Assembly (NCBI RefSeq): GCF_030068475.1
Contig: NZ_JAQOSP010000041.1
Location: forward strand, 1-64,000
Direction of reading: 5' to 3'
DNA from: Roseofilum acuticapitatum BLCC-M154
GTDB lineage: Bacteria > Cyanobacteriota > Cyanobacteriia > Cyanobacteriales > Desertifilaceae
Length of the DNA: 64,000 nucleotides
The position numbers and the translations under genes were made by a program. Shown here one piece after another: positions 11,110 through 56,983 of this stretch (positions within the stretch are counted from its first letter, which is position 1; each line of letters starts with the position of its first letter). The notes below the pieces were generated by a model. That model saw only the letters and a program-made list of their open reading frames with translations. It was not told the DNA's origin and searched no databases.

Positions 11110-11340
11110 ATGAGTCAATATTTTAAAACATCTGCTTTTCAAAAAGTGATTGAGGAGATAGAAACCTTCTCTTTGGAAGATCAAGAAATTCTCCTCGATA
11201 TCCTCAATAAGCGTTTAGCAGAACAAAAGCGATCGCAATTACTCAAAGATGTTGCTGAAGCAAGATTAGAATATAGAATGGGAAATTTTCAATTGGGAAC
11301 GGTAGATGAATTTTTAGCAGCATTGGACGAAGAGGAATGA
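11110..11340 (+). CDS. RelB-like antitoxin
   Basis: This 76-residue acidic helical protein (SLEDQEILLDILNKRLAEQKR, then FLAALDEEE) lies directly before a RelE-family toxin and overlaps it by four bases. Size, charge and order fit the antitoxin of a type II pair that also represses its own operon. Antitoxins of this group diverge strongly, so the call rests mainly on context. Confidence 0.75.
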   Translation: MSQYFKTSAFQKVIEEIETFSLEDQEILLDILNKRLAEQKRSQLLKDVAEARLEYRMGNFQLGTVDEFLAALDEEE

Positions 11341-11627
11341 AGATTGCTTGGAGTCCTAAATCTCTACGTTCATTTAAACGTTTAACACGCAAAAATCCTG
11401 ATCTACGCTCTTTAATTGAAGTAACCATAAGACAGCTCATTGAAGATCCTTTTCATCCCAGTTTACGAACTCATAAGCTCAAAGGAGATTTTTCAGGATG
11501 TTGGTCATGTTCAATTGATTATAGCTATCGGATCATTTTTGAGTTTGTACCAGATCAAGAAGAGGAGGAAGAGGAAGAAGAAGTTATTTTATTGCTCAAT
11601 TTGGGCACTCACGATCAAGTTTATTGA
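11337..11627 (+). CDS. RelE/ParE-superfamily toxin
   Basis: A 96-residue protein with the RelE fold pattern: IAWSPKSLRSFKRLTRKNPDLR, then HKLKGDFSGCWSCSIDYSYRIIFEF and a final strand ILLLNLGTHDQVY. Toxins of this group cut mRNA on the ribosome. The last two strands are separated by an eight-Glu stretch (encoded by GAG/GAA repeats near 11560-11583), an unusual expansion that could affect activity. It lies inside the dTDP-rhamnose cluster, co-directional with it. Confidence 0.83.
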   Translation: MKIAWSPKSLRSFKRLTRKNPDLRSLIEVTIRQLIEDPFHPSLRTHKLKGDFSGCWSCSIDYSYRIIFEFVPDQEEEEEEEEVILLLNLGTHDQVY

Positions 11628-12838: not shown

Positions 12839-12868
12839 TGCATAATTCTATAAAACTACCCTGATAAT
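12839..12868 (+). promoter_or_regulatory. candidate promoter, shared motif (site 1, sigma-like gene)
   Basis: TGCATAA (12839-12845), 13 bases, CCCT, then GATAAT (12863-12868), that is, a 17-base spacer between a -35-like and a -10-like box. It ends 49 bases before the start of the sigma-like gene. Same spacing as four other sites at 15836, 23331, 24385 and 24913; this site is the weakest in the CC region. Two TTTTGCAGAAA repeats lie just upstream. Confidence 0.55.
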
Positions 12869-12916
12869 TATGTAAGGTTTCAATAACACAGTAAGGATCA
12901 GGGAGATAAATAGACC

Positions 12917-14362
12917 ATGAAATCGCGCAAAGATACTGTTGAATTATTTTCAACATTTCTTCAAATCGATGACCAATATGACCGAATTGGGCCGGGGTGG
13001 CACAAATCACCCCGTTTGGCCAAGTCCATGACTCAGAAGGTGGAGAAAGAGCCAGGAATGCACAAAGAATATTGGGCCCAATACTGGCTCAGAGCATCAA
13101 TGGTAGAAGCTCCAGTTAATCGGCTGGCACGAGAACATCTGGCTGCCTATTTAGAAGAGACCTGTTGTCGGACAGCATGGAAAGTTTCCCAGCAGTATTC
13201 AGAGCGAAAAGTGGATGTTTTCCAGATGGCTAGAATGGTGGTACTAAATCCAGTTAAGCTGTTCAAAAGTTATGATTATAAAAGTAGTGGCGTGAAAACT
13301 TACGCTCAGTTTCCCCTGGAAAGTGCTGTTCGCGAACAACTACGGTGTAACGGTATGGAATTAGACAAATATAGTTGGCCGGCACTGCTACGAAGGATCA
13401 CAAAAAAGAAGCTCAAAGAGGCTTTGTCTAAAGCTGATGTTAAAGAGCCTACTTTTTCTCGTTGTTTGCAAGCTTGGCAATGTTTTCGGGAGCAATATGT
13501 ACCTAGGAAAGCTGATGGGCGTAAACAATTGCAACCCCCGGATCGGCAAGAATTAGACCAGATAGCCTCTCACTATCATCAACGCTATCCTTCTGAGGAC
13601 TTTACCCCCGATGGTGCAATGATTCAAACCTTACTCGATCTAGCAGTTCAAGCGATTCGAGAGAGTTTTAATACCAAGATTGTAGCGCTAGAAGATAGTG
13701 TGTTTGAACCCGCTAGTGTTTCTGAGCCATCCCTAGAAGAGGTAGAAGAGGCAGAAGAAGAAACGGAGCGTTTTAGACAAATTGGTGCAGTTCTTTCTCG
13801 AAAGTTTGATGAATTTGTAGTAGCCGATCGGAGGTTGCTTAAGCTCTGGTATGGCTTGGGGATGACTCAATCAGATTTAGCGCTTATTTTTAGCTTTGAA
13901 CAACAGTATCAAGTGTCTCGTAAAAAAGACAAATTGAAAAAAGTTTTGCTGAAATCTTTAGCTCAATGGAGTCAGGAAACTCTGAAGGTTACGATTACGT
14001 CTAACCAACTGAGCGAGACAGCTAATATTTTGGATATTTGGCTGGAAAAAATCGGTTGCTTTGACTTTTGCGCTCGCCTAAAGCAATCCCTGATGAATCA
14101 AGGCAATTTTGATGAGCTTAAAATCTTGAAGTTACACTTTGGTAAAGGATTGAAGCTTGAGGAGGTTGCCCAGGAAATGGGACGGGGACAAGGGGAGATT
14201 GAGCAGGTGATCGCCGAAATCAAGTCGAGGCTAGAGCAAGAATTATACACTCTAATTGCAACCGAGTTTCAGCTTTCTTTACAAGGGTGCAAATCAGACC
14301 ACAAAGCGATCGCTAATTTTGTCCAGATGTGTCTGTATAAATTGCCTTATGGCTCCCTTTAA
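12917..14362 (+). CDS. sigma-70-like transcription factor
   Basis: A 481-residue protein. Residues about 75-145 resemble sigma region 2 (DVFQMARMVVLNPVKLF, then SYDYKSSGVKTYAQFPLESA). Residues about 309-345 resemble region 4 (LLKLWYGLGMTQSDLALIF followed by a basic helix). A second HTH-like segment lies at about 404-440 (ILKLHFGKGLKLEEVAQEMG). The spacing is wider than in standard sigma factors and a -10 recognition region is not obvious, so it could be a sigma-like regulator. AGGGAG precedes the ATG. DUF1822 follows after 24 bases, so they form one operon. The shared element upstream suggests autoregulation (inference). Confidence 0.72.
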   Translation: MKSRKDTVELFSTFLQIDDQYDRIGPGWHKSPRLAKSMTQKVEKEPGMHKEYWAQYWLRASMVEAPVNRLAREHLAAYLEETCCRTAWKVSQQYSERKVDVFQMARMVVLNPVKLFKSYDYKSSGVKTYAQFPLESAVREQLRCNGMELDKYSWPALLRRITKKKLKEALSKADVKEPTFSRCLQAWQCFREQYVPRKADGRKQLQPPDRQELDQIASHYHQRYPSEDFTPDGAMIQTLLDLAVQAIRESFNTKIVALEDSVFEPASVSEPSLEEVEEAEEETERFRQIGAVLSRKFDEFVVADRRLLKLWYGLGMTQSDLALIFSFEQQYQVSRKKDKLKKVLLKSLAQWSQETLKVTITSNQLSETANILDIWLEKIGCFDFCARLKQSLMNQGNFDELKILKLHFGKGLKLEEVAQEMGRGQGEIEQVIAEIKSRLEQELYTLIATEFQLSLQGCKSDHKAIANFVQMCLYKLPYGSL

Positions 14363-14386
14363 ATAATCAACAGGAGGAATGAGACC

Positions 14387-15814
14387 ATGTTAACGATGAA
14401 TGAATCACTGATGCTCAATTCTAACCAGGTTTTGCTGGAAATTTCACCACAGGACAGGGAAACGGCTTGGCCGCCCGATAATCAATTTGCGACAGAAAAG
14501 GGACAATGGAATGCCTATTTGAACCGCCTCTGTCTCCAGGCGGTTTTGTCTTGGATGGCAGAAGAATCGGGGATTGAACCGCAAATTTACCCCAGTGCAA
14601 GGAATGCGGAAAAATTGTGGGAAGGGATTAATGGAACGGCGATCGCCCTGGAAGAGACTCGCATCGTCATGATTCCCAGTGAAGCCATCGATACTGAGGA
14701 ATTTATTGTCCCTCAAGAATGGGTAGATATTCCAGATTGGAAAGCCAATTATTATCTGGCAGTCCAAGTGTTTCCCGATGATGGCTATGTGCGAATTTGG
14801 GGATATGCCACCCATCAACACTTGAAAACATTAGCCGTCTATGATGCAGGCGATCGCACCTACAGTCTAGATGGAGTGGATGTCATTCAAGACCTGAATG
14901 TGATGTGGGTGGCGAGGGAACTGTGTCCGAATGAACAAGTAGAAGTTGCAGCTTTACCGATTTTATCTGCCCAGGACGCTGAACAGTTGTTAGCGCAACT
15001 GAGTTCGCAAGCCATTCATTACCGCCGATTTGGGCTTCCTTTTCCCCAGTGGGCTGCGTTGTTGACTCAAGGAGCTTGGAGAGAGCAGGTATGGGAAACG
15101 ACTACTACTCTAGAGAGAGTAGAGGCGATCGCCACTGATTCATATCCGCTTGCGGAAACCCTAACCAATTTATCCAATTGGTTGGAAAACCAGATTGAAA
15201 CTCAGTGGCAAACCCTGGAGCAATTTATGGCATACTCAACGGGTAATTTAAGTTTGGCCTTTCGCAATCTAGACATGACCGTAAATCCAGAAGAACGTAT
15301 TCCCATTCTGATTAACCGGATACAAACTAGTGCGGATGAAGGTCAAGTGAAAATTGCGGCCGAAGAGTTAGGCACAATGGGTCAAGGTCATCCGCAAATT
15401 ATTCCCGTTCTGGTCAATTTAATTCAAACGACCGAAGATGAAGAAACCCGTTGGGCCGCAGCCGAAAGTTTATGGACAATTTCCCCAGACCATCCCGGAT
15501 CGGGCGTTCGTAGAATTGCTGATTTAGGAATGCAATTTGGCAATTATCCCCTAGCTTTAATGGTGGCGATTTTACCTAAAAGAGAAGATAATCGGGCGAT
15601 TCTCCTGCGATTAAATCCGATGGGGAACCAGATGTATCTCCCTCCTGGAGTCGAGTTAACGGTGCTGGATGACGAAGGGGAGACGTTCTTGGAAACCGAA
15701 AGCCGAGAGCGTGATAATTATATTCAGCTTAAATTAGGCGGCGATCGCGGCGAACGTTTTAGCGTTAGAGTCGCCCTTGGTGAGACGGCAATCACAGAGG
15801 GATTCGTAATCTAA
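14387..15814 (+). CDS. DUF1822 family protein with HEAT-like repeats
   Basis: This 475-residue protein follows a strong AGGAGG site (14371-14376). The N-terminal two-thirds matches DUF1822, a cyanobacterial family without known function (YYLAVQVFPDDGYVRIWGYA is characteristic). Residues about 305-365 form two HEAT-like repeats (RIPILINRIQ, IAAEELGTMGQG, VLVNLIQTTEDEETRWAAAE), which usually bind other proteins. The C-terminus is a beta-rich domain. It is co-transcribed with the sigma-like gene, so a regulator or sensor that binds the sigma-like protein is a reasonable guess. An interspersed palindrome lies within the coding sequence at 15140-15159. Confidence 0.8.
   Translation: MLTMNESLMLNSNQVLLEISPQDRETAWPPDNQFATEKGQWNAYLNRLCLQAVLSWMAEESGIEPQIYPSARNAEKLWEGINGTAIALEETRIVMIPSEAIDTEEFIVPQEWVDIPDWKANYYLAVQVFPDDGYVRIWGYATHQHLKTLAVYDAGDRTYSLDGVDVIQDLNVMWVARELCPNEQVEVAALPILSAQDAEQLLAQLSSQAIHYRRFGLPFPQWAALLTQGAWREQVWETTTTLERVEAIATDSYPLAETLTNLSNWLENQIETQWQTLEQFMAYSTGNLSLAFRNLDMTVNPEERIPILINRIQTSADEGQVKIAAEELGTMGQGHPQIIPVLVNLIQTTEDEETRWAAAESLWTISPDHPGSGVRRIADLGMQFGNYPLALMVAILPKREDNRAILLRLNPMGNQMYLPPGVELTVLDDEGETFLETESRERDNYIQLKLGGDRGERFSVRVALGETAITEGFVI
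15140..15159. repeat. interspersed TCCGC/GCGGA palindrome inside a coding region, copy 3
   Basis: TCATATCCGCTTGCGGAAAC differs at one base from copies 2 and 4 and is read in frame within the DUF1822 gene, encoding SYPLAE. Confidence 0.7.
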
Positions 15815-15835
15815 AAAGATTCCGATCGGACGGAC

Positions 15836-15865
15836 TGCATAAATTGCTGGAGTCATCCCGATAAG
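15836..15865 (+). promoter_or_regulatory. candidate promoter, shared motif (site 2)
   Basis: TGCATAA (15836-15842), 13 bases, TCCC, GATAAG (15860-15865); ends 33 bases before the next start. It shares the longer stretch CTGGAGTCATCCC with the site at 23331. Confidence 0.6.
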
Positions 15866-15897
15866 TAGATGTAGAGAAAAATTTAGGAGTCACTCCG

Positions 15898-16143
15898 ATG
15901 TCTGCTTCTGAAACTGTGATGCACCAAATGTTTGCGAATCTGGTTGCCGAATATCATCCCTTTGCCAACTACCTCGGTTATCAAGAAGGCGAAAATGGCT
16001 TTATTATCATCTATGATGGCGGCAATGGCCGGCAAGCGATGGTGGTTGATACCCATGGCAATATTGTCCAAGATACGACCTTGGGAACCACCCGCACACT
16101 GGGATTACTGGCCCTAGGGGCTTGGTTATTGGGCGATCGCTAA
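15898..16143 (+). CDS. small conserved-looking protein, function unknown
   Basis: The 81 residues read as a compact alpha/beta protein (HQMFANLVAEYHPFANYLGY, then ENGFIIIYDGG and AMVVDTHGNIVQD), ending in a hydrophobic stretch TLGLLALGAWLLGDR that might associate with a membrane. I do not recognise the family. It starts behind its own copy of the shared promoter element, with TTAGGAG just upstream of the ATG. It lies between the DUF1822 and CHAT genes and ends before a strong hairpin at 16171-16208, so it may be transcribed alone. Confidence 0.72.
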   Translation: MSASETVMHQMFANLVAEYHPFANYLGYQEGENGFIIIYDGGNGRQAMVVDTHGNIVQDTTLGTTRTLGLLALGAWLLGDR

Positions 16144-16170
16144 TCCTGAGCTGTATTCACATTCTGAAAC

Positions 16171-16208
16171 ATTCGCTGACAAGAAAAGTTACATTCTTGT
16201 CAGCGAAT
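16171..16208 (+). terminator. perfect 15-bp stem hairpin
   Basis: Arms ATTCGCTGACAAGAA (16171-16185) and TTCTTGTCAGCGAAT (16194-16208) around an 8-base loop, 27 bases after the small gene. The following T content is modest, so it may be a terminator or an RNA/operator element before the CHAT gene. Confidence 0.6.
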
Positions 16209-16318
16209 TTAGTGTATACTCCGTGACGAGGAAGATAGCGGCTAGATCAATTAAAAATTAAAAATGGGTAAGGTCGAAGATTGTTGACCCGATAGGATAC
16301 TACATTCAGGCCAAGTTT

Positions 16319-19300
16319 ATGACTCAATTAGTCATTCTCAAACTAGGGAGCGGTAGTTTCGCCCAAGGTTTTCCGGTCACGCTCCAGATTGGTAAAGACG
16401 GTTCGATTCCGTCAGTTGAAGTGAGGGGGACATTGCCTCCGGCTCCGAAATTGGGCGATCGCTATACGCAATGGCAAGTTGCCTATCGCGGTTTAGGGCT
16501 ATCAGCGCGACTAGAGAAACCGAAGAAACAAAAGACTCAAGTCTCGCGATCGGGGCTATGTACGGAAGCCGCCCAGCAGCTTAAAGATCACCTCAATCAA
16601 TGGCTCAACTCGGAAGAGTTTCGCCCCATCAAAGAAGCACTGCTGAAAAAATTACAATCCTCAGAAGTCATTCGCTTCATCATTCAAACCCAAGAGCTGC
16701 AACATCAGCAACTACCTTGGCACTTTTGGACACTTTTAGTAGAAGACTACACCAAAGCCGAAATTGCCCTCAGTTCCCCCGAATATCAGGACGTGGAGCG
16801 GATCGAACGTCCGGGAGAGCCGCTCAAAATTTTGGCAATTTTGGGCAATAGTGAAGGCATTGATGTTCAAGCCGATCGCGAATTGCTCCAACAACTTCCA
16901 GGTGCAGAAGTAACCTTTCTCGTGGAGCCAAAGCGCAAAGAACTCACCGATACCTTATGGGCGAAAGGATGGGATATTCTCTGTTTTTCTGGCCATAGCT
17001 CAACGGAGGGCGAGACGGGAAAACTAGCGATTAATCAGACGGATAGTTTAACCGTTGCCGAACTCAAAAATGCCCTCAAAACCTCTATTGCCCAAGGATT
17101 GCGCTTGGCCATTTTCAACTCTTGTGATGGCTTGGGATTAGCTCGAAATCTAGCAGATTTGCATATTCCCCAAGTCATCGTCATGCGCGAACCCGTGCCC
17201 GATGTGGTGGCTCAGGAATTTCTCAAATATTTCCTCAAAGCCTTTGCCAGAGGTCAATCCCTGTACTTATCCGTCAGAGAAGCCAGGGAGAGATTACAAG
17301 GCATTGAAGATCAATTTCCTTGCGCCACTTGGTTACCCGTCATCTATCAAAACCCGGCAACTCTTCCTCCCACTTGGGAAGACTTGGGGGGAATTTGTGC
17401 CGATATTGGCTCGGAAAAAATCCTCGCTTGTCCCTATCGGGGATTATCCGCTTTTCGGGAAGAAGATGCGCCCTATTTCTTTGGTCGAGAAACCTTTACC
17501 GAACAGTTAATTCAGGCAGTTCACGAGAAGCCCTTCGTGGCCGTCATTGGGGCATCCGGTAGCGGTAAATCTTCTGTGGTGTTTGCCGGTTTAATTCCTC
17601 AATGGCGCTCAGATAATCATATCATTCTCAGCATCCGTCCTGGAGACCAGCCCTTTGTCAGCCTTGCAACCGCTCTCATCCCCCACCTAGACCCCCAACT
17701 AAGCGAAACTGACCAACTCATTGAAGCCAAAAAATTAGCCAGCGCCTTATCTTCTCAAGCCATATCACTGCGAGAAGTGATTGAACGGATTTTATCAAGA
17801 TCTACTCATACAACGGGGATCTTGTTAGTGATTGACCAATTTGAAGAACTGTATACTTTAGGTAAGAATCTTCAAGAGCGACAGCAGTGGTTAGAGAGTT
17901 GGTTAAGCGCCATCAAAGTCATTGCTCAACTGAAAGTGGTCATCACTTTACGCGCCGACTTTTTCACCCAAGCCATCGACGACCGACCCTTAACCGATGC
18001 TCTGCAAAATGCCGATGTCAAACTCGGCCCCATGAACCGGGAGGAGTTGGAGCGAACCATTACCCAACCCGCAGCTAAGGCGGGAATGTTGATTGAGCCA
18101 GGGTTAACGGATCGCATTTTGGAGGCCGTGCAGGCAGAACCGGGAAATCTACCCCTGCTCGAATTTGCCCTCACTTTACTCTGGGAACACCCCCGAAATG
18201 GCCGTTTGAATCATGCGGCTTATAAGGAGATTGGCGGCGTAGAATTGGCTTTAACTCGCTATGCTCAGGAGGTTTACGACCGACTTGATGGGACTGAGCA
18301 AGAAATTGCCAAACGGATTTTTCTGGAGTTAACCCAGTTGGGAGAAGGATCGCAAGAAACGCGCCGCCAGGTCTCGAAGCAAGAGTTACAGCGAATTGCC
18401 CCCTTTCCTTCTGTGTCGGGTACAGAAGAGCTAGTGGAGTCGGTGATTCAGAAATTAGCGGCGGCTAAGTTGGTGGTGACTAGCGAAACCTCGGTGGATA
18501 TTGTCCATGAAGCTCTAATTCGCCACTGGCCGCTGTTGCGGGAGTGGTTGGAGGAAAACCGAGAGCAACTGCTGCGTCAGCGAGCCATTGAGGGAGCTGC
18601 GAAAGAGTGGCAAAAGCAGGGAGAACCGGAGGAGTTAAGTTATCTGCTCCAGGGGGTGAAGTTAGCGGACGCGGAGAGTCTGCTGGACTCGGAGGGGATT
18701 GCCCTGTCGAGTTTAGCTAGGGATTATATTATCATCAGCCAGGCTGTGCGCGATCGCCTCCTGCAAGAAGAAGAAGACAGACGCGAGCGGGAGTTACAGC
18801 AGGAGCGCAAAGCCAGAATTGCCGCCCAGAGAACGACCCTCGCGGCAGTTGCATCGTTTTTTATTATACTGGTGGCTGGGGGATTTTCCTGGTGGCAGCG
18901 ACAGCAGTCCCTTCGCATTCTTCAGGATGTTTCGGCGGGTATCGAGGTGGGGACACCGCAACTGTTATCGCTGTTGCCGGATTTTTTCAAGATTGCCAAC
19001 CAACAGAAGCGTAGGGGAGAGATTGACCGCGCTCTGGCCTATTACCGCACAACTTTAACCGAGTCCAAGCAGTTACTCCAGCCTGCCGAAAATGAAGCGA
19101 TTCAACTCAGTGCTGCCGAGCAAGAGCAGTTAGAAAACCTGGTTCTGGACACTGAACAAGCCTTAGTCGAGACGATTGAAACCCATCGCCTACCGGAACT
19201 GGAGGCACAACTGAGTCAGGGGGAAATCGGCCAATTGCTCGATGAGACTTCTTTACTCGATTATGAGGAGCAATATACGGAGGGAGCGCTAAAAACCACT

Positions 19301-19609
19301 TACGCTATCCTCCTGCGGGAATGGGGAACTAAAGCGGATTTGAATGACAATGGGGAGCTGCAAACTCCAGAAGAAGCCGAGTATCTCCCTTGTGAGCTAT
19401 TAAAGGCGATCGATGCTCTTTGGCGCAAGCATAGTGGCGATCGCTGCGGTTGGTTTGCTCAAGATTCTGCCTATCAATCTGCCGAATGTGAAGAGTTAGA
19501 TGAATTAACCCTAACCCAGAAAATATTCCTCGTTCCTCCCTTTGATGCGGCCATTAATCGCCTGAATAGCTGTGATGTTACCCATGCTCCTGTCTCTCTC
19601 AACCCTTAA
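16319..19609 (+). CDS. CHAT protease - STAND NTPase protein with TM segment and EF-hand
   Basis: 1096 residues. The CHAT (caspase-like) peptidase domain, about 165-340, has catalytic His226 in FSGHSS and Cys269 in FNSCDG. The STAND NTPase, about 370-690, begins CPYRGLSAFREEDAPYFFGR, with Walker A GASGSGKSS (Lys417) and Walker B ILLVIDQFEELY. A coiled, charged segment precedes a membrane helix at about 840-860, which would keep the CHAT and NTPase parts on one side and the last 230 residues on the other. The C-terminus has a canonical EF-hand loop at 1007-1018 (DLNDNGELQTPE). CHAT-STAND proteins are typically signal-activated proteases in conflict or cell-death pathways; the target here is unknown. 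Confidence 0.9.
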   Translation: MTQLVILKLGSGSFAQGFPVTLQIGKDGSIPSVEVRGTLPPAPKLGDRYTQWQVAYRGLGLSARLEKPKKQKTQVSRSGLCTEAAQQLKDHLNQWLNSEEFRPIKEALLKKLQSSEVIRFIIQTQELQHQQLPWHFWTLLVEDYTKAEIALSSPEYQDVERIERPGEPLKILAILGNSEGIDVQADRELLQQLPGAEVTFLVEPKRKELTDTLWAKGWDILCFSGHSSTEGETGKLAINQTDSLTVAELKNALKTSIAQGLRLAIFNSCDGLGLARNLADLHIPQVIVMREPVPDVVAQEFLKYFLKAFARGQSLYLSVREARERLQGIEDQFPCATWLPVIYQNPATLPPTWEDLGGICADIGSEKILACPYRGLSAFREEDAPYFFGRETFTEQLIQAVHEKPFVAVIGASGSGKSSVVFAGLIPQWRSDNHIILSIRPGDQPFVSLATALIPHLDPQLSETDQLIEAKKLASALSSQAISLREVIERILSRSTHTTGILLVIDQFEELYTLGKNLQERQQWLESWLSAIKVIAQLKVVITLRADFFTQAIDDRPLTDALQNADVKLGPMNREELERTITQPAAKAGMLIEPGLTDRILEAVQAEPGNLPLLEFALTLLWEHPRNGRLNHAAYKEIGGVELALTRYAQEVYDRLDGTEQEIAKRIFLELTQLGEGSQETRRQVSKQELQRIAPFPSVSGTEELVESVIQKLAAAKLVVTSETSVDIVHEALIRHWPLLREWLEENREQLLRQRAIEGAAKEWQKQGEPEELSYLLQGVKLADAESLLDSEGIALSSLARDYIIISQAVRDRLLQEEEDRRERELQQERKARIAAQRTTLAAVASFFIILVAGGFSWWQRQQSLRILQDVSAGIEVGTPQLLSLLPDFFKIANQQKRRGEIDRALAYYRTTLTESKQLLQPAENEAIQLSAAEQEQLENLVLDTEQALVETIETHRLPELEAQLSQGEIGQLLDETSLLDYEEQYTEGALKTTYAILLREWGTKADLNDNGELQTPEEAEYLPCELLKAIDALWRKHSGDRCGWFAQDSAYQSAECEELDELTLTQKIFLVPPFDAAINRLNSCDVTHAPVSLNP

Positions 19610-19627
19610 TTCAACCCTCAAAGAACC

Positions 19628-20920
19628 ATGATTAACCTACTCCATACCATCAGGAAAACGAAGAAAATTCTATTCGCTCTGGTGAGTCTTCTGACCTTAA
19701 CCTTGATTCTGATAACCAGCCTTCCCAGTCACGGACTCATCCCCGATTTTGCCTACATCGTCAAATTCCAAGGCAGTCGCCTAACCCTAGGTGCAGGAAA
19801 CAGCCGAAATCGACAACCCGTTCAATTACAAGACCGCCTCGAATCGAATCGTATTCTCTATGTTCCCGGCGATAATCAACATTGGGCAAACCTCGCATTT
19901 ATCACCAATTCCCCTATAGATTCAACTGGATTAATGGTTACAGCCGGCCCCCATCGTAGTGCCACCCAATGGAGTTTTCCTTGTACAGCCAGAGGCCATT
20001 TTACGATTGGTTGGCAACGGGGAGGCGATAGGGGATGTGAACCCGGTATTCGAGTGCAATCAAGTGGTTCTGCAACCAGTCAATTATTGACACGAAAAGC
20101 GTTAACCGCTCAAAGCACAAATGAAGTTGTTGTTGTTCCCACTCCAGGAGAAAGTTTACTGCAAACTTCAGATAGTTCTACCGGAGTTGTGGTTGATGTT
20201 TTAATTGGAGACGTGCAAGTTCAGTCAGACAGATATCCCCAAGGCAGACTGATTAGAGCAGGACAAAGATATGCTTATCCAGAAGATACCGTAACTCCCA
20301 TAGATTCCAATGCCATTCTCAATTCTCCAGAACTGCGAAACTTCCGCAATCCCAATAACTGGACATCACCGGATTTACCAGATAGAGCAGCCAGTAGTAT
20401 TGTTTCCCAGTTAACTGAATTGGAAACAGCTTTGCGTCAATTACCACAGCAAACAGCGAGTCAATCTACACCAACTCAAGCAAGTAATCAACCTCAAACA
20501 ACAACTCAATCGGCATTGGGGAATCAGTGGGCTCTAATGTACGATGTATTTGTTTCCAGCCAACTTACAAATGATTGCCATCAAGCGGGGGGTCTAGCAG
20601 CATTAACTTTAATTAACTCTTCTCTAACGGGCTACACGGGGTCGCTTTCAATACCCAATAAAACATGGACATTAAATGAACCGTCAATTCACTCAGATCA
20701 AATAAATGGCTCTATCAATGGAGACCAAGTACAATTAAGGTTTACAGACACCATGGATTATCCCTATTATTCTATTGATTATATACTCAATGGTTCAATT
20801 AATAACCAAGGTTTTTTTGAGGGAACTGGTAGAGTATCAGGGGGGGGGTGTGAGGGACGAACTTTCTATTTTAGATTAATGAAAAAAGAGCAAGTTGTAG
20901 AGTATCTACAGCGATCCTAA
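19628..20920 (+). CDS. exported protein, paralogue 1 of tandem pair
   Basis: 430 residues, beginning 18 bases after the CHAT gene and so probably in its operon. A basic N-terminus and hydrophobic helix (about 14-35) form a signal peptide or anchor. The next 240 residues are nearly the same as in the gene at 20985: VKFQGSRLTLGAG, GDNQHWANLAF, AGPHR, QWSFPCTARG, PTPGESL and VDVLIGDVQVQSD, the last resembling a FecR-type fold. After a Gln/Thr-rich linker comes a different C-terminal beta module starting LGNQWALMYD. I do not recognise the whole protein. Confidence 0.78.
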   Translation: MINLLHTIRKTKKILFALVSLLTLTLILITSLPSHGLIPDFAYIVKFQGSRLTLGAGNSRNRQPVQLQDRLESNRILYVPGDNQHWANLAFITNSPIDSTGLMVTAGPHRSATQWSFPCTARGHFTIGWQRGGDRGCEPGIRVQSSGSATSQLLTRKALTAQSTNEVVVVPTPGESLLQTSDSSTGVVVDVLIGDVQVQSDRYPQGRLIRAGQRYAYPEDTVTPIDSNAILNSPELRNFRNPNNWTSPDLPDRAASSIVSQLTELETALRQLPQQTASQSTPTQASNQPQTTTQSALGNQWALMYDVFVSSQLTNDCHQAGGLAALTLINSSLTGYTGSLSIPNKTWTLNEPSIHSDQINGSINGDQVQLRFTDTMDYPYYSIDYILNGSINNQGFFEGTGRVSGGGCEGRTFYFRLMKKEQVVEYLQRS

Positions 20921-20984
20921 AATTTACTATGCTATAAACTAAAAGACTCAAAAAATAGTACGTCAACACTAATTTGAACTTAGC

Positions 20985-22484
20985 ATGATGATCAATAGAC
21001 TTTATATTCTACGCAGAGTTAAGCGATTACTCTTCGCTTTTGTCAGTCTCCTGACCTTAACCTTGATTCTCCTAACCAGTCTTCCCAGTCAAGGACTCAT
21101 CCCTGATGCTGCCTACATCGTTAAATTCCAAGGCAGCCGTCTAACCCTAGGTGCAGGAACCAGCCGCAACCGCCAACCTGTCCAACTGCAAGACCGCCTC
21201 GAATCGAATCGTATTCTCTATATTCCCGGCGATAATCAACATTGGGCCAACCTCGCATTTGCAGTCGATTCTCCTAAAGATCATACCGGATTAGTTGTCA
21301 GAGCCGGCCCCCATCGTACTGCATCACAGTGGAGCTTTCCTTGTACTGCCAGAGGCCGTTTTACCATTGCTTGGCAACGAGGAAGAAATCGGGGATGTGA
21401 GGAAGGAATTCGAGTACAATCAAGTGGCTCTGCAACCAGTCAATTGTTAACACGAAAAGCCTTAACCGCTCAAGGCAGAAATGAAGTTGTTGTTATCCCC
21501 ACTCCAGGAGAAAGCTTGATTCAAACTGCCGATAGTCCTACTGGAATTTTGGTTGATGTTTTAATTGGGGAAGTGAACGTTCAGTCAGACCGATATCCCC
21601 AAGGCAGACTGATTCGAGCAGGACAAAGATATGCTTATCCAGAAGATACCGTAACGCCCATAGATTCTAATGCGATTCTCAATTCTCCAGAACTGCGAGA
21701 TTTTGTAAACCCTGATAACTGGTCACCAGACCTTTTCGATCGCTTTGCTAATGGTATTGTTGCACAGTTGACTGAATTGGAAACCGCCATCAGATCGAAT
21801 CCTCCAACCCTGGCTTCACCCCCTCCAAGTCGTCAACCCAATACTCAACCTACAGCATCAACCACTGGAACTGATTTAAATGGTGATTGGCGATTTGATT
21901 TTGGTTGGTTTACTTATTCATCGCAGGAAGGATGTACATCTGTTTCTCCAGGAACGTATACCGGTCTCATGACTATTAGTCAAAATGGCAACCAACTGAG
22001 TATGTCACCTGATGGGCCAGTTCCAATGGATGATGGAACTTTATCAGGCAATCAATTTCAAGCTAGAGGAGGAACTCCCATGCGATGGGTAGGCACAGTC
22101 AGTAGTGATGGTAATGAAATTAGTGGAGATGGAATTTGTGATAGTTTTACTATGCCTTTTAAGTTGACACGCTTACCTGAAAATAATATTCCTGATGGGG
22201 CGATCGATATTTCAGGAAAATGGGTTTTAGTGATTTTAGGTGGGAGCAATATAAGAGCTGTAGATACCATCGTTCAAACAGGCAATGAATTCCAATTACT
22301 CTCAGGAATTTCGGGTCGTTCTATCAAAGGAGAAATTGAAAATAATGAAATCCTAATTTATTTTACCAATACTCCAGAGCGCGGAAGAATAAGTGCCGAT
22401 CTCAACCGAATAGAATTTCCAGACCAAATTATGATCCGTTTGGGTTCACCAGGCTGTTCAGACTCCCAAAGTTGTCAAATATAG
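20985..22484 (+). CDS. exported protein, paralogue 2 of tandem pair
   Basis: 499 residues. The N-terminal ~275 residues closely repeat the preceding gene, including the signal segment, QWSFPCTARG and RLIRAGQRYAYPEDTV. The proline/threonine linker leads to two beta-rich modules, each opening with G-x-W (LNGDWRFDFG and ISGKWVLVIL), unlike the single module of paralogue 1. Several cysteines in the C-terminal part fit an extracytoplasmic location. Function unknown; a sensor head with interchangeable tails is an inference from the pattern of conservation. Confidence 0.78.
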   Translation: MMINRLYILRRVKRLLFAFVSLLTLTLILLTSLPSQGLIPDAAYIVKFQGSRLTLGAGTSRNRQPVQLQDRLESNRILYIPGDNQHWANLAFAVDSPKDHTGLVVRAGPHRTASQWSFPCTARGRFTIAWQRGRNRGCEEGIRVQSSGSATSQLLTRKALTAQGRNEVVVIPTPGESLIQTADSPTGILVDVLIGEVNVQSDRYPQGRLIRAGQRYAYPEDTVTPIDSNAILNSPELRDFVNPDNWSPDLFDRFANGIVAQLTELETAIRSNPPTLASPPPSRQPNTQPTASTTGTDLNGDWRFDFGWFTYSSQEGCTSVSPGTYTGLMTISQNGNQLSMSPDGPVPMDDGTLSGNQFQARGGTPMRWVGTVSSDGNEISGDGICDSFTMPFKLTRLPENNIPDGAIDISGKWVLVILGGSNIRAVDTIVQTGNEFQLLSGISGRSIKGEIENNEILIYFTNTPERGRISADLNRIEFPDQIMIRLGSPGCSDSQSCQI

Positions 22485-22494
22485 AATTAAAAAT

Positions 22495-23103
22495 ATGCCC
22501 TACAGCCAGTTCACCACCATCACCAAAGTCAAAGAAGCCTTCAGCCTCACCACAGTAGAAGGGGTGCGCTTTTTTCCAGACCTCCCACCCATTGAACCGA
22601 GTCAAACCCTTTCAGAAACCCTGAGCGAAACCCTTCCCCTAGCGGTAGCAACGGGTAGTGAAAAAGCCCGTTCCGAGTTAATCATTAGTCCCCTTTTAGT
22701 CGAAGTGCGCCGTATTCTTAAGCGTCAAATTAGTCTATTTTCTGGGGAAGAATTTAATGTTGATGAATCTTTAGGACTCAATGGGCGCTGTGACTTTCTG
22801 ATTAGTCACTCTAGGGAACAATTGGCCATTGAAGCCCCAGCGATTCTGATTGTAGAAGCCAAACAAGCGGATCTGAAAACCGGAATTGGTCAATGTTTGG
22901 CGGAAATGGTCGCTGCCCAACAATTTAATCACAGTAAACAAAACCCTTTACCGACAATCTATGGTTCAGTAACCAATGGCTTCCAATGGCAGTTTTTAAA
23001 GCTGGCAGGTACTGAAGTAACAATTGATCTCAATCTTTATCCTCTGCCCCCCGTGGAGACGATTTTAGGGATGTTCATTTGGATGGTAAATGAAGGGAAT
23101 TGA
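22495..23103 (+). CDS. PD-(D/E)XK nuclease-like protein
   Basis: A 202-residue protein with a restriction-endonuclease-like pattern: Glu61 in SELIISPLL, Asp100 in NGRCDFLIS, Glu121-Ala-Lys123 in ILIVEAK, and Gln133. This is the usual E...D...ExK...Q arrangement. Similar cyanobacterial proteins resemble the N-terminus of type I restriction R subunits, but no helicase or methylase is nearby. Whether it cuts DNA is not shown. It begins 10 bases after paralogue 2. A truncated copy of its own first 51 codons follows at 23144. Confidence 0.75.
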   Translation: MPYSQFTTITKVKEAFSLTTVEGVRFFPDLPPIEPSQTLSETLSETLPLAVATGSEKARSELIISPLLVEVRRILKRQISLFSGEEFNVDESLGLNGRCDFLISHSREQLAIEAPAILIVEAKQADLKTGIGQCLAEMVAAQQFNHSKQNPLPTIYGSVTNGFQWQFLKLAGTEVTIDLNLYPLPPVETILGMFIWMVNEGN

Positions 23104-23143
23104 TCTCAAATCCGTTACCCATTGTTAATTGTTAATTGACATT

Positions 23144-23299
23144 ATGCCCTACAGCCAGTTCACCACTATTACTAAAGTGAAGGAAGCGTTCAGCCTAACC
23201 ACAGTGGAAGGGGTGCGTTTTCTGCCGGACATTGAGCCAGTGTCCCCCAGTCCCATTTTACAGGGTCTGTTGGAAACCAATATTCCTTGGGCGATCTAG
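23144..23299 (+). pseudogene. truncated duplicate of the nuclease-like gene
   Basis: The 51-codon frame starts MPYSQFTTITKVKEAFSLTT and VEGVRF, identical in protein to the start of the gene at 22495. It then diverges and stops at 23299, before any catalytic residue. It starts after a TTAATTG heptamer repeat and ends just upstream of the promoter element at 23331. A tandem partial duplication is the simplest explanation. Confidence 0.8.
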
Positions 23300-23330
23300 T
23301 TCAGTAAAGATCTGATTTTCCTCAGTCCGT

Positions 23331-23360
23331 TGCATAAAACCCTGGAGTCATCCCAACAAA
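23331..23360 (+). promoter_or_regulatory. candidate promoter, shared motif (site 3)
   Basis: TGCATAA (23331-23337), 13 bases ending CTGGAGTCA, TCCC, AACAAA (23355-23360). It lies 93 bases before the lipoprotein start. Confidence 0.55.
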
Positions 23361-23452
23361 TTAATAGCAAGGGAAAAGCTACTCATTGACCTCTGTTGTA
23401 GCCAATACCTTGCTGCTGAAACAAGATTGTGCAACATTCTGAGGAAATCACC

Positions 23453-24133
23453 ATGAAATTCGCCACCCAACTTCCCCAAGCTCTCGTTAAAGTTAGTTTA
23501 GCGGCTGCTGTTCTTTTACTCGCCAATGGCTGCTATCAACCAGAATCCCTTACTCCAGAAACCTCAGAACCAACTCCCTCCATAGAAACGCCTTCAGAAA
23601 CCCCCAATCCAGAACCTGCGGCTTCTCCATCATCCATACCTTCTGAGGAGAACGTATCTATTGACGTGCAAACCCAAAACCCTCCAGTTATTCCCTCTGT
23701 TCCAGACTCTAATTCCACTCAACCCATTCCCAATTCTCCCTTACCTCCTTCAACTTATCGGCCTCCTCAGATAGATTCTAGCAGTCCACTCGATGGAATT
23801 TGGAAATTGCAATATAGCGTTCATGGAATCATTTATCAAAGTGTCTTAAAGATGGAAGGCAATCAAGGAAAAATGCTCACTCGTTTCTTTAATGTCAATG
23901 CGGGACAACCCGAAGAAGTCGAACAAACCTTAAAGATTGAACCTTCTGCTCACGGACTCCTATTACTCGGTTCTAACCCCGTTTATCCAGGGACAAATAC
24001 TCCCTATCCGACGTACAGTGCTGATAATTTTCTGTTTACTGTCAATCCAGATGGTTCACGATTTGCCTATACTTGTGATACAGCTAATCGATGTTCTCCC
24101 GTAGAAATGGAGTATGTGGGAGCGAGTTTTTAA
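23453..24133 (+). CDS. lipoprotein with beta-rich C-terminal domain
   Basis: The ATG at 23453, behind GAGGAA, gives 226 residues; an upstream GTG at 23429 lacks such a site. The signal peptide ends in a lipobox LLLANGC, so the Cys is lipidated and the protein anchored outside the cytoplasmic membrane. A Pro/Ser/Glu-rich spacer of about 90 residues leads to a module starting LDGIWKLQYSVHG, with the same G-x-W opening as the tails of the two exported paralogues upstream, and two cysteines near the end. Function unknown. It is preceded by the shared promoter element. Confidence 0.82.
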   Translation: MKFATQLPQALVKVSLAAAVLLLANGCYQPESLTPETSEPTPSIETPSETPNPEPAASPSSIPSEENVSIDVQTQNPPVIPSVPDSNSTQPIPNSPLPPSTYRPPQIDSSSPLDGIWKLQYSVHGIIYQSVLKMEGNQGKMLTRFFNVNAGQPEEVEQTLKIEPSAHGLLLLGSNPVYPGTNTPYPTYSADNFLFTVNPDGSRFAYTCDTANRCSPVEMEYVGASF

Positions 24134-24176
24134 TTGTAGTCGATTCGATTAAGATTGATACAATTATGATTGGTCT

Positions 24177-24211
24177 ATTGTAGGGGCGGGTTTGAAACCC
24201 GCCCCTACAAT
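24177..24211. repeat. perfect 17-bp palindrome with 1-base loop
   Basis: ATTGTAGGGGCGGGTTT (24177-24193), G, then its exact complement (24195-24211). A degenerate relative (ACCCGCCCCTACAA) recurs at about 24347-24360. This type of GGGGCGGGTTT palindrome is a common dispersed element in cyanobacteria. It lies in the 316-bp gap after the lipoprotein gene, which otherwise holds only promoter site 4. Confidence 0.85.
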
Positions 24212-24384
24212 GTTTCATTGTTAATCAAATTAACTTATTTATTAGATTAAATCCTTAAATAGTTGCTACTGTCTGTGTACTGTAGAGACATGGTGGGTTC
24301 GTGCGGGTTTAGAAAAATAGTTGTCAGTCTACAAGATTTGCGTATAACCCGCCCCTACAAATTTTATATAGGCCAGAGTCGGAG

Positions 24385-24414
24385 TGCATAAATCTAGATT
24401 TCTCTCCCAATAGA
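24385..24414 (+). promoter_or_regulatory. candidate promoter, shared motif (site 4)
   Basis: TGCATAA (24385-24391), 13 bases, TCCC, AATAGA (24409-24414), ending 36 bases before the membrane-protein start. Confidence 0.55.
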
Positions 24415-24449
24415 TAAGCACAAGAACAAATCAAGTTGAGGGAAACACC

Positions 24450-24806
24450 ATGAATCCTACTGGAGACAACAAAAACAAAATTGAAACTATCCATGCAGAA
24501 CTGGAAGCCCAAAAGTTAACCCAAATGGTTAAACTCTCTGAGAAGAGTTTGTGGGCTACGATTGCTCTGGGTATTGTTTTTCCTATCGGAGGATATATTT
24601 ATACTAGGCGCTGGCTGTCGGGTTTGGGATTTATGCTCGGAGGTATGGGTTTGGCGATCGCCGTTTACGCGGTCGAGCCAGACCAGTACAGAGCCGATCC
24701 CATGGCGTTCACATTATGCTCGCTTTACGGTGCGATCGTTTCCCCCCTCGATAATAGTCGTGCGATTTCCCGCGCTCGTGAACGAGTCAGCGATCTATCG
24801 GAGTAG
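24450..24806 (+). CDS. small membrane protein, function unknown
   Basis: 118 residues with a charged N-terminal helix, then two hydrophobic segments (about 34-52, ALGIVFPIGGYIYT, and 58-75, GFMLGGMGLAIAVYAV) and a basic C-terminal tail. The layout resembles TM2-like or small two-helix membrane proteins. GAGGGAAAC precedes the ATG. It has its own copy of the shared promoter element and is followed by a clear terminator, so it is probably transcribed alone. Confidence 0.75.
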   Translation: MNPTGDNKNKIETIHAELEAQKLTQMVKLSEKSLWATIALGIVFPIGGYIYTRRWLSGLGFMLGGMGLAIAVYAVEPDQYRADPMAFTLCSLYGAIVSPLDNSRAISRARERVSDLSE

Positions 24807-24839
24807 ATCTGGCTCAATCTGAATAGCCTATCCTACGGT

Positions 24840-24876
24840 AAACCCCCAGTTCTTAACCAACTGGGGGTTTTCTTTA
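24840..24876 (+). terminator. rho-independent terminator
   Basis: The stem AAACCCCCAGTT (24840-24851) pairs with AACTGGGGGTTT (24859-24870), followed by TTCTTT. It ends the membrane-protein transcript. Confidence 0.88.
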
Positions 24877-24912
24877 ACGCTACAAATTGCCAAAACAGCT
24901 TTTGGGTTGATC

Positions 24913-24942
24913 TGCATAATTTCTTGAACCTTTCCCTATAAG
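24913..24942 (+). promoter_or_regulatory. candidate promoter, shared motif (site 5)
   Basis: TGCATAA (24913-24919), 13 bases, TCCC, TATAAG (24937-24942), 66 bases before the secreted-protein start. Confidence 0.6.
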
Positions 24943-25007
24943 AGTACAGAAGCTAATCAAGCTTCAGGTTCAAATTCACTCTACTCGTTCATTCCAGGAG
25001 CAACGTT

Positions 25008-25517
25008 ATGAATTCTTTTATCACCTCTTCTCTGCAATCTGTTTACCAAGCTACTACCAACTTTATGAAACCTAAAGCTACAGTTAAAACCGCGATCGCC
25101 CTCTTTTCTGGTCTGCTAGTTGCTGCTCCTACCGCCGCGTTTGCGAACCGCTATACGGATGTCGTCTACCAACAGTTAATGGATGCTGCTATTGGTTTGG
25201 GTATTTTAAGTAACTATCAAGTGGTTGATACTCCTTATGTAAATACCTTAGATGATAATCGCTCAGAAACGATCTCCGTCACCCTTTATTCTGGCCACTC
25301 CTATGCTCTACTGGGAGTGTGCGATCAAGATTGCCGAGATCTAGACCTGTATCTCTACGATGGCTATGGGAACTTAGTTGATTCTGATACCAGCAGAGAT
25401 GATTATCCCATCGTTGAGGTGTCACCTAGCCGGAGCGGTCGTTTCTATGTTAAAACTTCGATGGCCAGTTGTTCAGCGTCTTACTGCTATTATGGCGTGG
25501 GTCTGTTTGGGAGATGA
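25008..25517 (+). CDS. secreted protein, PPC-like beta domain
   Basis: 169 residues. A signal peptide (KTAIALFSGLLVAAPTAAFA) is preceded by a longer than usual N-terminal extension. The mature part has a jelly-roll pattern like the bacterial pre-peptidase C-terminal domain: SETISVTLYSGHSYALLGVC, DLDLYLYDGYGNLVDSD, and SGRFYVKTSM. Two closely spaced Cys pairs (CDQDC, CSASYC) suggest disulfides outside the cell. No catalytic domain is attached. It lies behind the shared promoter element, with CAGGAGCAACG as ribosome binding site, and before a bidirectional hairpin. Confidence 0.78.
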   Translation: MNSFITSSLQSVYQATTNFMKPKATVKTAIALFSGLLVAAPTAAFANRYTDVVYQQLMDAAIGLGILSNYQVVDTPYVNTLDDNRSETISVTLYSGHSYALLGVCDQDCRDLDLYLYDGYGNLVDSDTSRDDYPIVEVSPSRSGRFYVKTSMASCSASYCYYGVGLFGR

Positions 25518-55573: not shown

Positions 55574-56983
55574 ATGACTGAGCCATCTCAATCCGCTAAA
55601 CTCAATCCTAGCTCTAGTTTTAGCGTCAAAATTCGGGTTAAACTCCATAATCGTGCGGGCGCTCTCGCAACGGTTACTGGTGCGATCGCATCGGTTGGCG
55701 GTAGTTTAGGAGAAATTAACCTTTTGCAGCGTACCCTAGATTTTACCCTGCGGGAAATCACCGTAGACGCTGCCTCAACCGAACAAGCCGAGGAGATTGT
55801 CCAAGGGATTAAAGCCTTGCCAGACATTGACGTATTGGAAGTCTCCGACCAAACCTTTGACCTGCATAAGGGCGGTAAGATTACCATTAATAGCAAAATT
55901 GCCATTAAAGGTCAATCTGACTTGGCGATGGCTTACACTCCTGGGGTGGGTCGGATTTGTAAGGCGATCGCCGAAAATCCCCAAAAAGCCTTTGATTTAA
56001 CCATCAAAAGCAACACTATTGCCATTGTCACCGATGGTAGCGCAGTTTTGGGATTGGGCAATCTCGGCCCCTTGGGCGCTCTGCCAGTTATGGAAGGGAA
56101 AGCCATGCTATTTAAGGATTTTGGCGGTCTCGATGCCTTTCCCGTCTGTCTAGATACCCAGGATACCGAAGAAATTATTGCCACCGTTAAACGCATGGCT
56201 CCCGTATTTGGGGGCGTGAATTTGGAAGATATTAGCGCTCCCCGATGCTTTGAAATTGAGCGCCGTCTTAAGGAAGAGCTAGATATTCCCATTTTCCATG
56301 ATGACCAACATGGAACGGCGATCGTAACTCAAGCTGCCCTCTATAATGCCCTGAAATGGGTTAAAAAGAGCCTAGACAAGGTACGAATTGTGATTAATGG
56401 GGCCGGGGCCGCTGGGGTGGCGATCGCCCATTTGTTGCAAGAAGCAGGCGCAAAACATATCGTCATGTGTGACTCCAAAGGCATTCTTTCTAAACAACGC
56501 TCTGACCTGAATGCCGCTAAACAAGAATTTGCAGTAGATGAATCTGGCTCTTTAGCTGATGCCATGAAAAACACCGATGTGTTTGTTGGCGTGAGCGTGC
56601 CAGGGGTGTTAACTCCAGAAATGGTCAGTACCATGGCCAAAGATCCGATCGTCTTTGCCATGGCTAACCCCATTCCCGAAATTCAACCAGAGCTAGTCAC
56701 CGATCTCGTCGCAGTTATGGCCACTGGACGCAGTGATTATCCCAATCAGATCAATAATGTCTTAGCCTTCCCTGGGATATTCCGAGGTGCTTTAGATTGC
56801 CGCTCCCGCACGATTACACGCAAAATGTGTATTGAAGCAGCAGCAGCGATCGCCTCTTTAGTCAGTCCCATGGACTTAGGCCCCCATAATATCATTCCCT
56901 CCGTGTTCGATCCTCGTGTTGCTCCTGCCGTATCTGCGGCAGTGCAACAAGCTGCCCGGGCCGAAGGGGTTGCCCAATGTTAA
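55574..56983 (+). CDS. malic enzyme with N-terminal ACT domain
   Basis: Oxidative decarboxylation of malate to pyruvate with NAD(P). 469 residues. An ACT regulatory domain (about 18-90: RVKLHNRAGALATVTGAIAS) precedes the malic core: YTPGVGRICKAIAENP, VTDGSAVLGLGNLGPLGALP, FHDDQHGTAIV, and the dinucleotide fold VINGAGAAGVAIAHLL. The ACT fusion suggests control by a small ligand, probably an amino acid. Stand-alone gene. Confidence 0.94.
   Translation: MTEPSQSAKLNPSSSFSVKIRVKLHNRAGALATVTGAIASVGGSLGEINLLQRTLDFTLREITVDAASTEQAEEIVQGIKALPDIDVLEVSDQTFDLHKGGKITINSKIAIKGQSDLAMAYTPGVGRICKAIAENPQKAFDLTIKSNTIAIVTDGSAVLGLGNLGPLGALPVMEGKAMLFKDFGGLDAFPVCLDTQDTEEIIATVKRMAPVFGGVNLEDISAPRCFEIERRLKEELDIPIFHDDQHGTAIVTQAALYNALKWVKKSLDKVRIVINGAGAAGVAIAHLLQEAGAKHIVMCDSKGILSKQRSDLNAAKQEFAVDESGSLADAMKNTDVFVGVSVPGVLTPEMVSTMAKDPIVFAMANPIPEIQPELVTDLVAVMATGRSDYPNQINNVLAFPGIFRGALDCRSRTITRKMCIEAAAAIASLVSPMDLGPHNIIPSVFDPRVAPAVSAAVQQAARAEGVAQC

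Follow-up and report, generated by a model that had tools for sequence, protein, structure and literature searches.

A TGCATAA promoter-like element before five genes of one Roseofilum cluster, and before related sigma genes, is probably read by the sigma-like protein of the cluster

What switches on a gene cluster that encodes both a caspase-like protease and a sigma-like protein of its own is the question raised by a locus of the cyanobacterium Roseofilum acuticapitatum BLCC-M154 (contig NZ_JAQOSP010000041.1, positions 1 to 64,000; this whole stretch of 64,000 nucleotides is referred to here as the window). In five gaps of this cluster the heptamer TGCATAA is followed, at a fixed distance, by a second short box, and the first of the genes behind these elements encodes a protein of the sigma-70 family (12917 to 14362, plus strand). 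We consider it very probable that the five predicted promoters are read by this protein, forming an autoregulated local regulon, and that related sigma genes are arranged alike. A sequence-only reading of the window had already proposed that the sigma-like protein encoded in the cluster has this element as its promoter class and regulates its own gene through it, and this proposal is supported by the exclusivity of the element within the genome, its conservation upstream of orthologues, its fixed spacing, and its co-occurrence with the sigma gene in one host family (f13).

All five elements lie on the plus strand, at the coordinates first read:

12839 to 12868, plus strand: promoter-like element 1, TGCATAA-N17-GATAAT, upstream of the sigma-like gene (putative autoregulation)
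15836 to 15865, plus strand: promoter-like element 2, TGCATAA-N17-GATAAG, upstream of the gene for an 81-residue protein and then of the CHAT/STAND gene
23331 to 23360, plus strand: promoter-like element 3, TGCATAA-N17-AACAAA (the weakest -10 box), upstream of a lipoprotein gene
24385 to 24414, plus strand: promoter-like element 4, TGCATAA-N17-AATAGA, upstream of a small membrane protein gene
24913 to 24942, plus strand: promoter-like element 5, TGCATAA-N17-TATAAG, upstream of the gene for a secreted PPC-like protein

Their intergenic position on the coding strand was borne out, with a distance to the start codon of 32-92 bases rather than the 33-93 given before. Could such a pattern be a chance match picked by eye? 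The heptamer alone is, as had been expected, near chance level, no commoner in the window than it should be (10 copies against 8.9), and the two copies mentioned beyond the five sites were in fact five. The spaced pattern TGCATAA-N14-CC occurs six times in the window, as opposed to 0.45 times expected from dinucleotide shuffles (none of 100 shuffles reached six), the sixth copy, at 55863, being in coding DNA and without the NAYAR part. The full pattern, TGCATAA-N14-CC-NN-A(T/C)A(A/G), has exactly five perfect matches in the 5.22-Mb genome, all within the 12-kb cluster, and the genome-wide search that the sequence-only reading had called for thus returned none elsewhere. Reversed-pattern controls gave no perfect match in the whole genome, and matches with one mismatch (15) were near the control level of 10. 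The chance of five independent sites falling within one 12.1-kb stretch of 5,220 kb is about 3e-11. Coincidence is refuted by this confinement to the cluster, together with the conservation in an independent set of loci described below, and its probability is practically negligible.

The five sites might also resemble each other through recent duplication of upstream regions within one cluster, with no regulator implied. Elements 15836 and 23331 have 13 further spacer bases in common (CTGGAGTCATCCC), so that one may be a copy of the other, and the cluster does contain tandem paralogues (19628-22484). The remaining spacers are, however, unrelated, the common parts being the two boxes only, and the same boxes recur, their spacers again unrelated, before sigma genes of other families as well as before unrelated genes. 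Conservation upstream of orthologues largely refutes duplication, which we regard as very improbable. The CC pair, taken at first as part of the element, turned out to be local to this genome and was dropped from the conserved element, since relatives do not conserve it. Five other species of the genus hold one pattern match in all together and no detectable relative of the sigma gene, and the cluster therefore looks like a lineage-specific island.

Relatives of the sigma gene were taken, with their surrounding DNA, from other genomes of the order and class, their start codons being chosen mechanically; a search of genome contigs with the window sigma protein as query found no relative. The sigma tree sets a short form (~400 residues) apart from a second, mostly longer one (~480-640 residues), the long form, which includes the window protein. 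Exact TGCATAA is present within 400 bases upstream of 37 of the 74 long-form genes, in 15 family-level groups, compared with 0 of 16 short-form genes, and this is the conservation upstream of orthologues that had been asked for. Among the long-form genes the reverse orientation gives 3/74, and all possible rearrangements of the seven letters average 2.3/74. A later set of 56 loci, fetched after the hypothesis had been formed on the first set, contained the exact heptamer in 28. An element common to the short-form genes as well was considered and dropped (0/16), and a spaced-word search upstream of these genes brought out no other common word.

When the sites are aligned on TGCATAA, the strongest other positions are found 17-18 bases downstream, with G or C in 37/38 and then A in 32/38. 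The pair (G/C)A stands at 17 bases in 32 of 39 sites and in at most 8 at any other distance from 8 to 29, which upholds the fixed 17-base spacer of -35/-10 type claimed from the window, and an unbiased spaced-word search ranks GCATAA-17-GATA first. As aligned here, the conserved core across relatives is TGCATAA-N17-(G/C/N)ATAA(G/T). Two boxes at a fixed spacing of ~17 bases, upstream of genes and in one orientation, is the layout of a -35/-10 promoter, where the -35 box would be TGCATAA and the -10 box the NATAAN block that follows it after 17 bases. It is strongly suggested that the element is such a promoter, read by the sigma protein and subject to autoregulation, with related sigma genes apparently preceded by this promoter as well. 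In other loci, too, the sigma cluster contains several sites, for example in L170, with four, and in L187, before a CHAT gene. In the latter locus, between +4281 and +15000 from the sigma gene, the element stands 60-75 bases before the CHAT gene, the next gene and a short DUF4258-like gene; neighbouring vWA, PP2C-like and kinase-like genes resemble a TerY-type triad.

Which protein, then, reads the element? The -10 box begins with G or with C, and on the sigma tree this variant changes three times, as opposed to a mean of 14 for shuffled labels, while the single host families f14 and f20 each hold both variants; on this evidence the -10 variant follows the sigma clade rather than the host family. 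In family f13 the pattern TGCATAA-N15-CTGATAA has 71 matches, set against 0 control matches, which are present in 8 of 11 genomes with the sigma gene and in none of 4 without it (these genomes are related, and the match counts are not independent). One of them, G424, carries the sigma gene and ten sites and is congeneric with three f13 genomes that have neither. G400, with six sites and no close long-form sigma gene, and G383 both contain a divergent sigma-DUF1822 pair with TGCATAA upstream. Finally, L158 (family f32) retains most of the window cluster, including a CHAT protein 65% identical and a PD-(D/E)xK nuclease-like copy 66% identical to those of the window; its sigma gene has lost its N-terminus, and exact TGCATAA in gene direction is found nowhere in this locus, a case of apparent joint decay of sigma gene and element. 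Taken together, the f13 co-occurrence, the match between -10 variant and clade, the G400 and G383 pairs and the decay in L158 make the sigma protein the most likely reader. Seven f13 genomes (G041, G340, G356, G385, G399, G411, G446) have two or three long-form sigma paralogues; every paralogue has a -10 variant of its own that is retained from species to species (GATAAGTA, GATGTACT, GATATATA).

The same observations bear on another explanation, in which TGCATAA is bound by an activator, or by a different alternative sigma factor, that accompanies the sigma gene, the -10 box being used by that different sigma factor. A class-II activator site would also lie at a fixed distance from the -10 box, two genomes with dispersed sites (G400 and G039) have only divergent sigma-like genes, and isolated sites occur in Nostoc. 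This explanation is nevertheless unlikely in our estimation: other loci share with the window cluster of ten genes only sigma, DUF1822 and often CHAT, the -10 box is GATAAG/CATA-like and unlike the housekeeping TATAAT, which makes both boxes different, the -10 variant goes with the sigma clade, and the divergent sigma-DUF1822 pairs of G400 and G383 have TGCATAA upstream too.

Several points weigh against the sigma protein as reader. Half of the long-form genes are without exact TGCATAA; some of these have sites with one mismatch, truncated upstream sequence or misjudged starts, and some clades (L177-L182) seem to lack the heptamer. Certain Nostoc genomes have isolated intergenic matches and no obvious long-form sigma gene, and the -10 box of site 3 (23331), AACAAA, is weak. 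The protein itself is divergent: Sigma70_r4 scores 23.7 bits at residues 400-433, just below the gathering score of 24.1, and the Pfam model of sigma region 2 has no match in it. Its predicted structure, built from two sequences, is too poor for use (predicted local distance difference test score 42.5). Membership of the protein in the family is indicated by TIGR02937, a region-2-to-region-4 model, at 60.3 bits (cut-off 42.9, residues 76-347); this model is matched by 15 of 17 relatives, some relatives clearly match Sigma70_r4, and 7 of 17 long-form proteins weakly match a SigB/SigF/SigG model. A profile search of solved structures returned sigma factors at E-values of 0.04-0.6 and no better. 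The isolated intergenic matches in Nostoc and Anabaena (L315, L319, L321, L322, L324, L325, L330) are followed, for example, by genes resembling those for phenylalanine/histidine ammonia-lyase and PhzF.

What the element may control in other genomes could be read from the genes that follow it. Over 245 genomes TGCATAA-N17-GATAAG has about 200 matches compared with 11 of the reversed pattern, concentrated in families f13 and f14, and none of 30 f13 sites examined is inside a same-strand reading frame of at least 100 codons. Among the genes behind the f13 sites are those for TerD, TerD-vWA/TerF and TerB-like proteins, dynamin-like and double GTPases, a tubulin-like GTPase, Hsp70, WYL regulators, an OLD/AbiEii-like ATPase, a PLD/SNF2 restriction-like protein and a GmrSD-type protein; in f14 the sites precede, among others, the sigma gene itself, a serpin gene and STAND NTPase genes. 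Over 84,980 species, an exact 18-base version was matched 22 times; 18 of the matches are cyanobacterial, all 18 of them intergenic, and three of the four others are in reading frames. As we read the protein families, the targets have a conflict or stress flavour, and in some lineages the promoter class has spread to a predicted genome-wide regulon with many stress and conflict genes.

In the window, the gene block from 12917 to 25517 is entirely on the plus strand and the genes beyond it are on the minus strand. As the five elements sit in gaps of this block, every gene of the block stands behind one of them:

12917 to 14362, plus strand: sigma-70 family protein of 481 residues, long form with a C-terminal extension (TIGR02937), the proposed reader of the elements
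14387 to 15814, plus strand: DUF1822 protein (PF08852, 353 bits), directly 3' of the sigma gene, a candidate sigma regulator
15898 to 16143, plus strand: 81-residue protein with no family match
16319 to 19609, plus strand: fusion of a CHAT (caspase-like) protease and an nSTAND1 NTPase, 1096 residues (PF12770, 51 bits with a model cut-off of 24; PF20703, 405 bits), a candidate trigger; the first ~110 residues lie N-terminal of the CHAT domain
19628 to 20920 and 20985 to 22484, plus strand: two tandem paralogous secreted proteins with no family match, their likeness seen in the translations
22495 to 23103, plus strand: PD-(D/E)xK nuclease-like protein (PADLOC PDLC01472, PD_DExK, 174 bits)
23429 to 24133, plus strand: lipoprotein, with a lipobox-like LLLANGC in the translation
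24450 to 24806, plus strand: small membrane protein of 118 residues, from its reading frame
25008 to 25517, plus strand: secreted protein with weak PPC-domain similarity, the last gene of the block

The tandem secreted proteins are nearly identical over their first ~220 residues and diverge in their C-terminal parts. Upstream of the block, a small overlapping gene pair at 11110-11627 reads like a toxin-antitoxin module, the second gene being ParE/RelE-like.

The elements would define a closed local regulon in this genome, comprising the sigma gene (positive autoregulation) with DUF1822, a second unit of the 81-residue gene with the CHAT/STAND protease and the genes that follow, and the lipoprotein, membrane and secreted protein genes. 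In 66 of 73 long-form loci DUF1822 lies close to the sigma gene, in almost every case immediately behind it, and in L109 (8564-10477, minus strand) a sigma-like protein has its C-terminal end fused to a DUF1822 segment, which suggests that the two proteins touch each other. From this proximity and fusion we infer that DUF1822 is the partner of the sigma factor and, most plausibly, the one that keeps it inactive. The CHAT/STAND protein would be the trigger: on sensing a signal it might release the sigma factor through proteolysis or a conformational change, after which autoregulation would amplify the response.

In Bacillus, sporulation-type SigF/SigG promoters have a -35 consensus containing GCATA or TGMATA; the TGCATAA box may resemble it, while host, architecture and context differ. 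A literature text search for TGCATAA together with cyanobacteria, made in a partial library so that a description in a subscription journal is possible, found no description of the promoter; the one paper that it returned, on chloroplast YlmG, was judged unrelated from its title. Neighbourhoods of EACC2-caspase, DUF1822 and an extracytoplasmic function (ECF) sigma factor have been described, with the coupled sigma factor predicted to regulate many genes (eLife 2021, PMC8195603); that paper gives no promoter and no regulon, and the word promoter is absent from it. The window cluster shares with these systems the sigma-like gene with DUF1822 beside it and the CHAT/caspase protein, whose C-terminal module varies and is nSTAND1 in this case, and differs in that a putative promoter class, autoregulation, and local or dispersed targets are identified in the present work. 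On the best reading, the window sigma gene encodes an autoregulated alternative sigma factor belonging to the caspase/DUF1822 systems that were described in 2021, with a promoter class that was previously undescribed.

The nearest worked-out parallel is the CASP-sigma system of type III-E CRISPR, in which the TPR-CHAT protease Csx29 cleaves Csx30, an inhibitor of an ECF-like sigma factor; this factor has sites within its own locus, which suggests that the defence genes are under positive autoregulation, and also one or more sites elsewhere (Science 2022, PMC10028731). The likeness is one of outline (CHAT protease, sigma factor, own-locus sites): inhibitor and cleavage were shown there, whereas in the window system they are guesses. 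Family library scans found no Cas7-11 or CRISPR component among the ten cluster proteins (whether the libraries hold a model of Csx30 was not checked). SigJ of Nostoc punctiforme is likewise an alternative sigma factor of a cyanobacterium; its regulon is dispersed and its promoter, the J-Box, is recognizable, with an extended -10 GGGaAtacT and a weak -35 (mSphere 2019, PMC6495340). In contrast, both boxes of the window elements are strong and neither matches the J-Box; the extended -10 was found in 0/5.

Multicellular cyanobacteria are rich in caspase-like and STAND proteins, and to our knowledge little has been established about the output that these control. A sigma factor whose promoter can be read would represent this output side, with targets that can be listed in any genome from sequence alone. 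The transcriptional output predicted in 2021 can in this way be tested directly, and reporters become available in the search for the trigger. The element has the look of a switch for an immune-type regulon that activates itself and has been little studied, and one sigma family apparently shifts between a regulon private to one cluster and one dispersed over the whole genome. We would go further only tentatively, giving somewhat less than an even chance to a protease-gated immune sigma family with autoregulation through TGCATAA-N17-GATAAG, which would serve as a private switch here and command a genome-wide anti-invader regulon elsewhere. If true, such a regulon, with its Ter proteins, dynamins, tubulin-like GTPases, Hsp70, WYL proteins and restriction-like nucleases, would be a bacterial counterpart of inducible innate immunity.

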